Origin: a virus
Direction: 5' to 3' (one strand)
DNA length: 20,329 nt
Virus record (IMG/VR): IMGVR_UViG_3300048557_000106
Coordinates: 1 to 20,329 of that record
In this document: in pieces, positions 2,342 through 13,008 of the stretch
Layout: the number at the start of each line of letters is the position of its first letter
Position numbering within the stretch: the first letter of the stretch is position 1
The notes under the pieces: generated by a model
Databases searched by the model: none
What the model saw: the letters and a program-made list of their open reading frames with translations, nothing else
What the model was told of the DNA's origin: nothing
Program-made: the position numbers and the translations under genes

Positions 2342-3865
2342 TTAGTCTTCTATAGTAAAATCTAAACCTTCAAAATTTTCTTCTTCTTTAGCAGGTTTAA
2401 AACTTTTACCTGTTTCTAAATACTTTAATTGAGCTCTTATTTCTTTTGGAGTTGAATTATCAAAAATAGTAATTTGTCTATCTTGACCTTCTACTGTTTT
2501 AGATATAGTTCTAGACTCTCTTCCACCTATAGTTTCTGCTTTTTTAACTAAAAAATTTCCTGGTGGTTTAGCAAGTTCCATTTCTAGTTCGTTAAAATTA
2601 ATCATTTTTCTATCTTTTGCTTCACCCGGTCCTACATCAGAAACTATATTAATTTTCATATTATCTATATATGAAGTATCTTGGATTTTTTTCTTGTCAT
2701 CTTTATCTGTCGATGTTTTGGTAGTTTGTATAGGCATGTTATTTTGAACATAGTCAACTTCTCTTTGTGTAAGCTTATCAACCATTGAATCAAAAGATTC
2801 TTTAGTAATAGGTATGTTTTGACCATTTAAAACAAAACTACCGTTTTCATCAAGTGTCTCGTTGTCTGTTAAAACATTTTGATATAGCAAATTAGCGCTT
2901 TGGACACCTTGAGCAGGTCCATCACCAGCTGTTAACAAACCAATAACTTCTGCTTCAATTTCTTTTTTTATAACACTTTTACCAAGATCATTAAAAGTAA
3001 ACTGTGTTATTATATTACCATTATCAAGTTTTGTTTCAGTTACTTTTTCATCATAATATTTAGCAGGCACTTGATTTTTTGCATTATAAACACCTATATT
3101 TTGTAAAGTACTGGGTAGTTTTTCGCCGGTTTTACTTTTGCCATTAGATTTTCTTAAATTAACTTCTGGTATAATAGGTAATTCACTTGATTGATTACCT
3201 TTTAAACTAACTTTATAAACTCCATCTTTAACGCCTGGGCCCGTATAAAGATCTTCACCACTTTCATCTTTACCAGATAAAACTAAAACAATATCTCCAC
3301 TATCTACATCAAATTCAAAATCTAAATTTCCAGGATTTGTGTTGTTAGCCATGTATTGTAATAAAGTTCCGTAGTTTGAATCCATGTATTTACTTATACC
3401 ACCTTCATTACCAGCATTGTTTTGAACTTTCTTATACATTTCAACATCAGCCATTAAATCATCCATTTCACTTCCAAAAGATTTTTTAAAGAACGAATCC
3501 ATTTTAAATATTTTATTACCTAATTCTTTTGATTTTGCAGGATCATTTTCAAACTCATAAGCTGATTTAGCTAAAGCATATTCATCTATAATATTACCCA
3601 TACCTTTTCTAAAACTTTCGTTTTCAGAAAAATCTAAAGTTTTTAAAGCGTCATTAACATTAGATTGAGTTTCTAATTGATATTTTTTAAACCGTTGTTG
3701 TCTTTTTTCGTTTCTTAATTTATTTTCCTCATCTTCTTTTCTTCGTCTTTCTGTCTCATCTGTAATAAGCTTAGCACCTACTTGTCCAATTTGAGATATG
3801 GCCCCGGCGTAATATTTAGCTGACTCAGTGTCGACGTATGTTATTGGATTTTCGTATGCTCCCAT
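2342..3865 (-). CDS. Putative internal virion / cargo protein (507 aa)
   Basis: This is a complete gene from the ATG at 3865 to a TAA at 2342. I do not recognise a catalytic domain. The N-terminus (MGAYENPITYVDTESAKYYAG) leads into a strongly charged helix at about residues 35-65, rich in Arg, Lys and Glu. A helical region continues to about 170, followed by mixed alpha/beta sequence. The C-terminus is acidic (EEENFEGLDFTIED). There is no signal peptide or membrane segment. It sits between a small glycine-zipper protein and a very large protein, matching the place of gp15 in the T7 internal core set, so an ejected inner-core role is plausible but inferred only from position and composition. 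Its ATG lies 14 bases after the stop of the proposed frameshifted tail of the preceding gene. The leader is A-rich without a Shine-Dalgarno sequence. Confidence 0.7.
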   Translation of the reverse strand: MGAYENPITYVDTESAKYYAGAISQIGQVGAKLITDETERRRKEDEENKLRNEKRQQRFKKYQLETQSNVNDALKTLDFSENESFRKGMGNIIDEYALAKSAYEFENDPAKSKELGNKIFKMDSFFKKSFGSEMDDLMADVEMYKKVQNNAGNEGGISKYMDSNYGTLLQYMANNTNPGNLDFEFDVDSGDIVLVLSGKDESGEDLYTGPGVKDGVYKVSLKGNQSSELPIIPEVNLRKSNGKSKTGEKLPSTLQNIGVYNAKNQVPAKYYDEKVTETKLDNGNIITQFTFNDLGKSVIKKEIEAEVIGLLTAGDGPAQGVQSANLLYQNVLTDNETLDENGSFVLNGQNIPITKESFDSMVDKLTQREVDYVQNNMPIQTTKTSTDKDDKKKIQDTSYIDNMKINIVSDVGPGEAKDRKMINFNELEMELAKPPGNFLVKKAETIGGRESRTISKTVEGQDRQITIFDNSTPKEIRAQLKYLETGKSFKPAKEEENFEGLDFTIED

Positions 3866-3879
3866 ATTTATATTTTTTA

Positions 3880-3978
3880 TTATCCTATTGGATTTACCAC
3901 TTTAAAAATGTCTGATAATTCAGAATTTGAATAAGTTGGTGTTGAAGTATTTGAACCGCTTCCGGTGTTTACTTTCCC
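3880..3978 (-). other. Candidate programmed -1 frameshift site and 30-residue trans-frame tail
   Basis: On the minus strand the last zero-frame codons are TTG GGA AAG TAA. The bases at 3978-3972 read G_GGA_AAG, which fits the X_XXY_YYZ rule for -1 slippage and lies directly before the stop. After slippage the ribosome reads GTA at 3972-3970 and then 29 more sense codons to a TAA at 3882-3880. The tail contains NTGSGSNTSTPTYSNS and ends FKVVNPIG. Its codons look like those of neighbouring genes. It has no ATG, so it is unlikely to be a separate gene. A small ACCG-GAAG-CGGT hairpin starts 5 bases after the heptamer. The new stop lies 14 bases before the next ATG, a spacing usual for this genome, whereas the zero-frame gap is 103 bases. 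Stop readthrough (the zero frame stays open about 25 codons beyond TAA) and a sequencing indel are the alternatives. Confidence 0.5.
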
Positions 3979-4703
3979 AAACCCCCAACATAAGCCCCAC
4001 CAATGCTTCCTAAAGCTCCAAGCATACTACTAGTCATACTTGCTCCAGCTTGTTGAGCAGCAACTTGCTGTTGTTGTGCACCTGATATTTGAGCTGAAAC
4101 TCTATTTAATTGTTGCATCTCTCTATCTTCTTTTGTTCTAAACATAAACTCTTTACCAGCCGCTCCAGCTTGTTGTATTCTTTGTGCTTCACTCATTTGC
4201 ACGCCTTGTATTCTCTGAGCTTCTTGCATTTTTAATTGCTCTAATTGAGATTGACCTTGTGCTTTTAATTTTTCGTTTTGCGCTTCTTGTGCTTCAATGC
4301 TTGCGCTAACACCTTTTTTACTTTGTAAAGCAGCTTGTGCTAAAGCAGTTGCTCCACCTGCACTAGCTCCAGTCGCTCTAAGCGTATCTAATGTATTTGC
4401 TAAAGCTATATCTGCTTCTTCTACTTGCATTTCAGCAGCTTGAGTTGCTACACCTAAATTAGCATATGGATTTGAAACCATACCACTTAAATCTGAGGCT
4501 AATGATGATATATCTTTAAAATCTTGATAAGGATTTGTAATAGCTTGTCTACTATTTTCTAGCGCTGTAAGTTTTCCCTCTAATCTTTTCTTTTCTCTAG
4601 CAGCAGCTCTAGCTCTTTTTCTAGCTGCTCCTCCACCAAAAAGACCACCTATTAGTGATACTGCTCCTCCTATAAGCGCGCCTGTTACTGGATCTAATGC
4701 CAT
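3969..4703 (-). CDS. Small internal virion protein, T7 gp14-like by composition and position (244 aa, zero frame)
   Basis: The gene runs from the ATG at 4703 to a TAA at 3969. Residues 8-25 (GALIGGAVSLIGGLFGGG) and 226-243 are hydrophobic glycine-zipper-like segments. A basic stretch (RKRARAAAREKKR, 28-40) follows the first. The centre is Ala/Gln/Glu-rich and helical, with two copies of the motif EAQRIQ at 161-166 and 172-177. This plan, hydrophobic glycine-rich ends around an Ala/Gln helix, is typical of small phage internal or ejection proteins such as T7 gp14, which form a channel in the outer membrane. That assignment is by analogy, not by recognised homology. The zero frame ends GGLGK-stop inside a G_GGA_AAG heptamer context. 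A -1 shift would add 30 residues, giving a 274-residue form (see the separate entry at 3880-3978). The next upstream gene stops 17 bases before this start. Confidence 0.75.
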   Translation of the reverse strand: MALDPVTGALIGGAVSLIGGLFGGGAARKRARAAAREKKRLEGKLTALENSRQAITNPYQDFKDISSLASDLSGMVSNPYANLGVATQAAEMQVEEADIALANTLDTLRATGASAGGATALAQAALQSKKGVSASIEAQEAQNEKLKAQGQSQLEQLKMQEAQRIQGVQMSEAQRIQQAGAAGKEFMFRTKEDREMQQLNRVSAQISGAQQQQVAAQQAGASMTSSMLGALGSIGGAYVGGLGK

Positions 4704-4720: not shown

Positions 4721-6250
4721 TTAGTATGATGATTCTACTACGTCTGATGACACAGAGAATAATTCTTTTTTAATTGCTGATGTATCAAATTGTGTTATAG
4801 CTGATATACTCATTTTTACAGTTGAATAAAAACCTTTTATACCAGACATGTCTGCACCATATAATATTTCACCATTAACAGCAGGCGAATTATTTATAAG
4901 ATTTGCAAAGTATTTATCTTCTTTTTTCTTAAATGTATTAGACCATATCTGTGTTTCTAAGCTAGCTAAATTATCTTGAAATACATATTTACCTATTGGT
5001 AAAGTTTTATCATTAGAACTAGCTACCATGTTCTCTAATTCCCAACCTGGTCCTCCTTCGTAGTTAATTGTTTTAAAGTTTTTAACTACAGATGGGTTAG
5101 AGTTTAAAACTACAGTAACATCAGATGGATAAGTTACTCCGTAAAACCTAGCGTAAGGTCCTAAATAATGTTGATAAAGTTTACCACTATTAAATGTATA
5201 AAACACATTACTTAAACTAAAAGAATAATTAGGTTTGTAACTAGAAAAAGTTGTCCAACCTAAAACGCCTTCATCAAAGGTTATTGTATTGTAATTAGAA
5301 TCGTTTTGTATAGATAAAATATAATCTTTAGAATGAGAGTTCCAGCCACCAACAATTTTAGTTGCATTAGCAAGTTCGTCTCTAAAAAAGTCATGCATAC
5401 CATAAGATGATATTTCAGTTATACCATCAGCTGATAATCTTAGCACACAACCTCTTTTTTTATCTGTAAAGTATTTTCTATAACCATACACGGCAAAACT
5501 TTCTGGGTTTGTACTTATACCATATTCGCCTGCGTAAGCTACTATTTGACCAATAACTAAATTACTAGACGTTACACTCCCACCTCCTTCAGCTGAATAT
5601 ATAGCGTCTTTATCTATTAGCGCTCTACTAACTTTATCTTCTTGAAATATAATTAAGTTCGTGTCTTCTGCGTATAGTTTTTGTATAGAACCATTAACAG
5701 GATCTGCGGATTTAGTTATGTCTTCACCAACAGAAAATTGATTTGTATTGTTTACACCAGTTCTAGAGTTAAATATACCAGAGTATATAAGCGAACTAAT
5801 TCTATGTTGTTGTTTAAATGTATCTTCTACTATATAGGCTTTAACACCAAAGTCAACAGATGTGTTGTTATAACCACCTCGTATTCTAGCTTCTTCTATA
5901 TACCAATCGTTAGCGTCTACAGCTTCAAAAGCCTCAGGTATATAAACATCGCCTGCTCTACCTGTAAAAGCTATAACATTATTATTAGTCACTGGCTGTG
6001 CTGAATCAATTGTTATATCTTGATTATTAGCAGCTACAGATAACACGGTTACAACAGGGTTTCCTGGAAAAGGTGTTGTTGTATTAGTAACTATTTGACC
6101 AGCACCTACGTTTATATTAGCCGCTTTTAAAGTAATAGTAGTACCAGTGCTAGCATTAGCAGTGCCAGTAGTATCTTTAACCTCTACAATACTGTTGATT
6201 TTTTTCAACCAGAATGTGCTAAAATAGTTTACTTCTAAAGTCGCTGCCAT
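4721..6250 (-). CDS. Tail muzzle/nozzle protein, distal part (509 aa)
   Basis: This is a complete gene from the ATG at 6250 to a TAA at 4721. Residues about 24-96 form a small Thr/Val-rich beta module also seen in neighbouring structural proteins. Residues about 168-310 carry a run of motifs (NQFSVGEDITKSADP, GSIQKL, EDKVSRAL, GEYGISTNPESFAVYG, YFTDKKRGCVLRLS, ADGITEIS) that I associate with the tail muzzle or 'stabilization' proteins of crAss-like and marine podoviruses. The later motifs, GWTTFSSYKP (331-340) and NFKTINYEGG (391-400), belong to the same family. The alternation of short strands suggests a propeller-like beta fold at the distal tail, comparable in role to T7 gp12. The gene directly follows the 1445-residue protein that carries the proximal half of the same architecture. 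In relatives I recall, these blocks occur in one polypeptide, so this looks like a split. Recognition is from memory. Confidence 0.75.
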   Translation of the reverse strand: MAATLEVNYFSTFWLKKINSIVEVKDTTGTANASTGTTITLKAANINVGAGQIVTNTTTPFPGNPVVTVLSVAANNQDITIDSAQPVTNNNVIAFTGRAGDVYIPEAFEAVDANDWYIEEARIRGGYNNTSVDFGVKAYIVEDTFKQQHRISSLIYSGIFNSRTGVNNTNQFSVGEDITKSADPVNGSIQKLYAEDTNLIIFQEDKVSRALIDKDAIYSAEGGGSVTSSNLVIGQIVAYAGEYGISTNPESFAVYGYRKYFTDKKRGCVLRLSADGITEISSYGMHDFFRDELANATKIVGGWNSHSKDYILSIQNDSNYNTITFDEGVLGWTTFSSYKPNYSFSLSNVFYTFNSGKLYQHYLGPYARFYGVTYPSDVTVVLNSNPSVVKNFKTINYEGGPGWELENMVASSNDKTLPIGKYVFQDNLASLETQIWSNTFKKKEDKYFANLINNSPAVNGEILYGADMSGIKGFYSTVKMSISAITQFDTSAIKKELFSVSSDVVESSY

Positions 6251-12941: not shown

Positions 12942-12957
12942 TTTAATATTTTAGTTA

Positions 12958-12993
12958 ATAGTGATTAGGGCCACCAAAGTGACCCTTCACTAT
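12958..12993 (-). terminator. Strong hairpin after the 254-aa gene, terminator or processing site
   Basis: On the minus strand the RNA can form an inner stem AGGGUCAC-UUUG-GUGGCCCU (8 pairs with one G-U) extended by an outer stem AUAGUGA/UCACUAU (7 pairs), separated by a two-base bulge on the 3' side. It lies 15 bases after the stop of the upstream gene and 16 bases before the next ATG. No U-tract follows on the minus strand (UAACUAAAAUAUUAAA), so it is not a classic intrinsic terminator. Transcript end, RNA processing or a pause are possible. The structure is seen in the sequence; the function is inferred. Confidence 0.5.
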
Positions 12994-13008
12994 AATTATA
13001 GTCACATA

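Follow-up and report, generated by a model that had tools for sequence, protein, structure and literature searches.

Does the 244-aa gene in this viral operon simply end at its stop codon, or do some of the ribosomes that reach this point shift into the -1 frame and add a C-terminal tail? The window (the whole stretch of DNA analysed here, 20,329 bases, virus record IMGVR_UViG_3300048557_000106) is a single minus-strand operon. It runs from a terminase gene, cut by the contig end, through genes for a portal, a 387-aa protein, a major capsid-type protein and several head and tail proteins, to a gene with a crassvirus muzzle domain, the gene in question, a 507-aa gene and a gene of at least 776 aa (Table 1). 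We consider it very probable that the 3' end of the 244-aa gene is a programmed -1 ribosomal frameshift site giving two forms of the protein. This conclusion is drawn from sequence, without expression data: the signal and its spacing are established at that level, whereas the production of both forms, and their ratio, is inferred.

The earlier note had placed a slippery heptamer, G_GGA_AAG, at 3978-3972, immediately before the stop of a gp14-like gene, and had described a 30-codon tail in the -1 frame ending at 3880. The minus strand, which reads GGT TTG GGA AAG TAA at the end of the gene, bears out the heptamer to the base, and -1 translation gives the same tail, with codons 3972-3883 encoding VNTGSGSNTSTPTYSNSELSDIFKVVNPIG and a TAA stop at 3882-3880. 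Slippage would yield a long form of 274 aa (the 244-aa short form plus 30). With the next ATG at 3865, the gap to the following gene is 103 nt from the zero-frame stop and 14 nt after the tail, just as the note had calculated, and its remark that almost all gaps are under 35 nt also holds, the remaining gaps of the contig ranging from -4 to 32 nt with one exception of 67 nt. That exception, at 12942-13008, is the only other gap in the window longer than 35 nt. The small hairpin described 5 bases past the heptamer is present at 3966-3955 (ACCG at 3966-3963 pairing with CGGT at 3958-3955), with a short stem of 4 bp and, taken alone, a fold z of -1.55. Stop-codon readthrough was ruled out as the source of the tail, being in the wrong frame, and so, for the window, was independent initiation of the tail: the tail frame has no ATG, as had been pointed out, and its sole GTG lies near its end. 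By itself, the arrangement in the window would be weak evidence, because 7 of 136 relatives with small gaps have a chance heptamer in their last four codons and because of the modest hairpin z; across relatives, the pattern goes far beyond chance.

Table 1. Features of the putative frameshift locus and of its neighbours, in window coordinates
Feature	Coordinates	Strand	Basis
Upstream gene with crassvirus muzzle C-terminal domain	4721..6250	-	PF25729, E 7.6e-10
Zero-frame short-form gene, 244 aa, gp14-like internal/ejection candidate	3969..4703	-	ORF, family, model, profile match
Slippery heptamer G_GGA_AAG, final two sense codons	3972..3978	-	sequence; same position in relatives
Zero-frame stop TAA abutting the heptamer	3969..3971	-	sequence
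Candidate stimulatory hairpin ACCG-GAAG-CGGT, 5-nt spacer	3955..3966	-	fold; spacer common to loci with unrelated stems
Putative -1 frame tail, 30 codons (VNTGSGSNTSTPTYSNSELSDIFKVVNPIG) plus stop	3880..3972	-	translation, tail homologues, -1-only codon bias
Next gene, 507 aa, gp15-like position	2342..3865	-	ORF; synteny with phi38:1 gp100
Following gene, at least 776 aa, gp16-like position, cut by contig end	1..2328	-	open-ended ORF; synteny with phi38:1 gp101

Scans of IMG/VR and GTDB genomes provided a first set of 158 distinct loci and a second of 62 further distinct loci, and 218 distinct relatives were compared overall. The pattern was suggested by two loci, L019 (GGGAAAG TAG) and L008 (GGGAAAC TAA), and every other locus served as a test. 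We counted a heptamer when a sequence of the form X_XXY_YYZ lay within the last four codons, and a tail when the -1 frame continued past the stop and ended before the next gene; L046 and L027, in which the -1 frame of the heptamer runs into or through the next gene, were not counted. In the first set, the gap after the zero-frame stop is bimodal (at most 60 nt in 136 loci, at least 75 nt in 17), and a heptamer with a -1 tail occurs in 15 of the 17 loci with long gaps and in none of the 136 with smaller ones. When the window, L008 and L019 are set aside, the heptamer alone is found in 12/14 long-gap versus 7/136 short-gap loci (p = 2e-11). The independent second set gives 11/13 versus 3/48 (p = 6e-8), and, taken together, the two sets have a zero-frame slippery heptamer ahead of the stop in 26 of 30 long-gap loci. 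Loci of one collection are not fully independent, and a tree-based pair test addresses this kinship in part: the heptamer and the long gap coincide in 9-10 of 11 independent pairs (median p 0.002).

The -1 frameshift with short and long forms that the earlier note had put forward is thus supported, in the absence of protein data, by a slippery site at the stop together with a -1 tail in 29 of the 218 distinct loci, most of them with a hairpin at a fixed spacing. Comparison of homologues had been suggested there as a check, and it came out in favour of the proposal: relatives without the tail lack the heptamer too, and long-gap relatives have both. The note's caveat that the zero frame stays open after the stop stands for the window, where it is open for 24 codons past TAA, but not for the frameshift loci as a set, in which the zero frame has 1 to 5 stops across the tail, the first included. 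The recurrence of the arrangement in loci from many metagenomes also weighs against the explanation that an indel, whether an error or real decay, broke an in-frame tail and left the short form as the sole product. Apparent assembly or sequencing errors do break the frame in this material, in the body of L002 and in the gene following L329 (both loci were excluded as likely errors, and L329 is uninformative), but the heptamer of the window, GGGAAAG, is not a long homopolymer. We give this explanation almost no credence.

A few of the exceptions may reach a tail by other routes. L170 has a long gap and no standard heptamer; its slippery site is non-standard (G_GGG_GAA GAC TAG), its hairpin (GCGCCG/CGGCGC) is strong, and its -1 tail is akin to the one in L188. 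L339 ends GCT TTT TAG, without a full heptamer, and its -1 tail is 75% identical to that of L134; slippage here would be of the P-site tRNA at the stop codon. In L131, the tail NSASSITPASNSLVGQYSSSLPQGTIYQSGSLNPSTYFN lies in the +1 frame after CC TTT GGG TAA C (zero-frame stop near locus position 2706), possibly a +1 frameshift variant of the same arrangement, or else an indel.

Among the heptamers, recorded at 28 loci, GGGAAAG occurs 12 times, GGGAAAT five, GGGAAAC three, GGGAAAA three, AAAAAAG three, and AAAAAAC and TTTGGGG once each. This composition bears on whether the long form could come from slippage of the RNA polymerase rather than of the ribosome. A few A-rich sites would be compatible with it (A_AAA_AAG in L139, L216 and L255, A_AAA_AAC in L168), but 23 of the 28 heptamers are GGGAAAN, whose homopolymers are too short to make a polymerase slip, and a hairpin 5-6 nt away is of the kind that stimulates ribosomes to shift; we see hardly any chance that polymerase slippage is responsible. 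Eight loci have heptamers ending in an Asn codon, AAC or AAT (L008, L077, L188, L129, L177, L192, L291 and L363). GGGAAAT and GGGAAAC require the Asn tRNA to slip, which it does poorly in E. coli. Slippage at such sites may come more easily to the ribosomes or the tRNA-Asn of Bacteroidota.

Stems were scored with a simple rule: uninterrupted Watson-Crick pairing over 4 bp or more, closed by a loop of 4-8 nt and starting 4-6 nt past the heptamer. Such a stem is present in 13 of 17 loci (at exactly 5 nt in 11 of them), compared with a mean of 1.2 at other positions and 0.8 in shuffles. It recurs in 6 of the 11 new loci versus 0.58 expected, a count never reached in 3000 shuffles; the remaining five (L216, L255, L291, L325 and L363) have no perfect stem at offset 4-6. 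This fixed spacing is a further point against an indel. The stem sequences are unrelated between clades (ACCG/CGGT, GCCC/GGGC, GCTG/CAGC, AACCCC/GGGGTT), and therefore position and pairing have been kept while the bases changed. Fold energies agree, with a mean z of -1.2 past the site versus -0.1 inside the same genes. In known systems the stimulator of -1 shifting usually lies at a spacer of 5-9 nt, and E. coli ribosomes shift very readily on G_GGA_AAG (PMC5009743).

If ribosomes do enter the -1 frame, the tails should read as protein in that frame. For 18 of 18 tails, the codon usage log-odds exceed zero in the -1 frame and drop below the -1 value in each of the two others (p = 4e-6 each), with means of 0.34 in the -1 frame and -0.41 and -0.59 in the other two. 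Differences between aligned tails number 63, 57 and 98 at codon positions 1, 2 and 3. In the best pair, L102/L287, 86% of tail residues are in common, and 9 synonymous against 5 nonsynonymous differences give a pN/pS of 0.16; the sum of eight pairs gives 0.48, and the tails of L216 and L255, with few changes between them, give no sign of purifying selection. As judged from codon usage and substitutions, selection acts on the -1 reading frame in relatives; decay of a broken tail predicts no such constraint. The tail of the window has its own family (L124, L129, L291 and L363, with a core like TYtrsELxdiF), and some -1 tails have homologues that are translated in frame. The tail of L040 matches the in-frame C-terminus of L039 (81% over 16 residues), whose protein is 83% identical; that of L168 matches the in-frame C-terminus of L162 (86% over 22), and that of L188 matches, more weakly, the in-frame C-terminus of L166. 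Between L162 and L168 the frame differs after a long A run, and for that pair a sequencing indel cannot be excluded.

These comparisons also bear on the possibility that the frameshift is real but serves translation only, bringing ribosomes near the next start and coupling the gp15-like gene, with the tail peptide itself unimportant. The -1 stop does mostly lie 3-31 nt ahead of the next gene, which is the ordinary operon gap size, as coupling would have it; but tail peptides are conserved between diverged phages, with the low pN/pS of the best pair, the homologous peptide is translated in frame in L039 and L162, and tail-less relatives simply have short gaps. We therefore regard coupling alone as a very unlikely account, and a frameshift that makes a tailed form of the protein remains our reading.

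The frameshift state is scattered on the protein tree, requiring at least 16 changes, and near neighbours differ in state (L019/L024, L039/L040, L170/L174, L178/L188). Neighbours of frameshift loci that have no tail include L178 (of L188), L068 (of L102) and L125 (of L124). The ends of the first two are not slippery: L178 reads TTA GGT CAA TAA where L188 has TTG GGA AAC TAA, and L068 reads TTA GGT AAT TAA where L102 has GCG GGA AAG TAG. The zero-frame end of the frameshift loci corresponds to the natural end of tail-less relatives, at a median of 44 residues past a conserved Arg, and 99 of 189 other loci end within 50 residues past this Arg. With the tail, the median becomes 77 residues, within the range of relatives extended in frame. 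About half of the relatives end at the same place without a tail, and many others have an in-frame one; since so many do without it, the protein family does not depend on a long form. The sequence evidence for programmed -1 frameshifting is strong, and the arrangement has been gained and lost repeatedly. A broader proposal, which we hold to be evenly poised between right and wrong, is that in short-tailed phages of Bacteroidota the gp14-like ejection protein carries an exchangeable C-terminal peptide cassette, read in frame in some, in -1 in many, possibly in +1 or with the assistance of the stop in a few, and absent in others, with frameshifting setting the proportion in which tailed and untailed subunits enter the ejection channel.

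What the carrier protein is can be approached only indirectly. After the muzzle-domain gene, the sizes rise from 244 aa through 507 aa to at least 776 aa, the small to large order of gp14-gp15-gp16. The AlphaFold2 model of the 244-aa protein has three long helices (pLDDT 80.5), and its best Foldseek match in BFVD comes from an uncultured virus and bears the name 'Internal virion protein' (E 0.011, prob 1.00). Where a gp14-type protein would be expected to show several membrane helices, hydropathy picks out only two mildly hydrophobic Gly-rich segments, residues 1-25 and 217-241. A remote profile match links the carrier family to gp99 of Cellulophaga phage phi38:1, in the same region (prob 94). 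PF24072 (T7_gp14) is matched weakly by 2 of 82 members (best E 0.0095), not including the window protein, phrog_598 ('DNA ejection') weakly by 2 of 82 (best 5.7e-5) and phrog_805 by one. Foldseek against PDB gave nothing significant for the model of the window protein, and the profile search found no solved relative. A second look with VIA gave Z of up to 8.0 against unrelated long-helix proteins, values that are not meaningful for a helical model. Profile comparison with the gene in the same place in an elemo phage was negative (prob 7). Neither the window protein nor L196 matched any annotated phage by tblastn, and therefore no carrier in culture is known. The identity given in the earlier note, a gp14-like, pore-forming ejection protein, is plausible in view of gene order, size, the gp99 profile match, the Foldseek hit and the weak PF24072 and PHROG matches of a few members, but it is not proven: 'gp14-like by position and architecture' is a fair statement of evidence that is not decisive. 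We infer, with moderate support, a small internal or ejection protein, from a short-tailed phage of Bacteroidota with crassviruses and phi38:1 among its relatives, its packaging and ejection being themselves inferences.

Phi38:1 gp99, annotated as a virion structural protein (PHROG 13764), likewise lies past a muzzle-domain gene and directly before gp100 and gp101. Unlike the window protein, it has 200 aa and abuts gp100 without a gap, leaving no tail and no room for a frameshift tail, and a small gene, gp98, separates it from the muzzle gene. In order and size, the genes of the window agree with the gp14-gp15-gp16 operon known from short-tailed phages (PMC8954989). T7 gp14 and P22 gp7 resemble the window protein in size (181-240 versus 244 aa), in the small-medium-large order, in being helical and in their hydrophobic Gly-rich end segments, although the window protein has no significant sequence match to them. 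Crassvirus phi-crAss001 keeps cargo proteins in its capsid and tail, and these are thought to form the ejection channel (PMC10172136).

Frameshifting of this kind is already known from other structural genes. The slippery site of lambda itself is of the G_GGA_AAG type. As proposed for the window, lambda gpG/gpGT and other tail assembly chaperones use a -1 slip near the 3' end of a small gene of the structural module, with the short form major and the long form minor (PMC5009743). Here, by contrast, the gene stands between the muzzle-domain gene and the gp15/gp16-like genes of a short-tailed phage, and the extension is of about 30 residues, not a separate domain. The position of the gene does not fit a tail assembly chaperone, for it is not between a major tail protein and a tape measure; its neighbours are the muzzle-domain, 507-aa and >776-aa genes. 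T7/T3 gene 10, Lactobacillus phage A2 and the head and tail proteins of Listeria phages provide a second parallel: there too a virion protein exists with or without added C-terminal residues, which may be read after a -1 shift, after a +1 shift or with no shift at all, and this is explained by modules landing in any frame (PMC5009743). The tail pattern of the window family resembles, by analogy, this frame-indifferent acquisition of Ig-like C-terminal modules (PMC5009743), with the difference that the carrier is of internal or ejection type rather than capsid or tail tube, and that the extension is a short, probably disordered peptide and not an Ig-like domain. In the open-access literature, we found no report linking frameshifting to ejection proteins, internal virion proteins or crAss-like phages, and no description of it in gp14, there or in the passages of PMC8954989 consulted; it is for this protein class, not for recoding as such, that no report was found.

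In the mechanism that we propose, most ribosomes would read GGA AAG, meet the stop and release the 244-aa short form, and a fraction would pause at G_GGA_AAG, aided by the adjacent stop codon and by the small hairpin that begins 5 nt further on. By moving back a single base, this fraction would extend the chain by 30 residues, yielding the 274-aa long form. The tail is hydrophilic and rich in Ser, Thr, Gly and Asn (across tails, 12% Thr, 12% Gly, 11% Ser and 9% Asn), and it might act as a flexible linker ending in a short docking peptide. The minority of tailed subunits could then dock on a partner (the portal, the tail barrel or the next ejection protein) and thereby set the stoichiometry or the order of the ejection complex. 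This docking role is speculative and weakly supported, and we doubt it more than we believe it; its only basis is composition and predicted disorder, the model of the in-frame long form of L039 being of low confidence, with a tail mostly below pLDDT 50 that we take as disordered.

If the reading is right, recoding of structural genes (tail chaperones, capsid, tail tube) extends to an internal or ejection protein of crassvirus-related phages, a large group that is mostly uncultured, and ordinary annotation misses a C-terminus of 24-45 residues in approximately 13% of the family members examined. The need for a minority long form of an ejection protein would become directly testable. The natural sites, with their varied heptamers, stops and hairpins, constitute a panel for the rules of -1 slippage on Bacteroidota ribosomes, one that covers the Asn-codon sites (GGGAAAC/T) that are weak in E. 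coli. The host of the window phage is probably a member of the Bacteroidota, an inference made because the nearest annotated phages of its muzzle gene (tblastn) are Cellulophaga phi38:1, Flavobacterium elemo phages, Maribacter Panino and Bacteroides crassviruses. Some phage contigs of the family (L365, L368, L369 and L371) were binned into MAGs named Aliivibrio, Ilumatobacteraceae and Woesearchaeota, and their presence in these unrelated bacterial and archaeal genomes is probably contamination.
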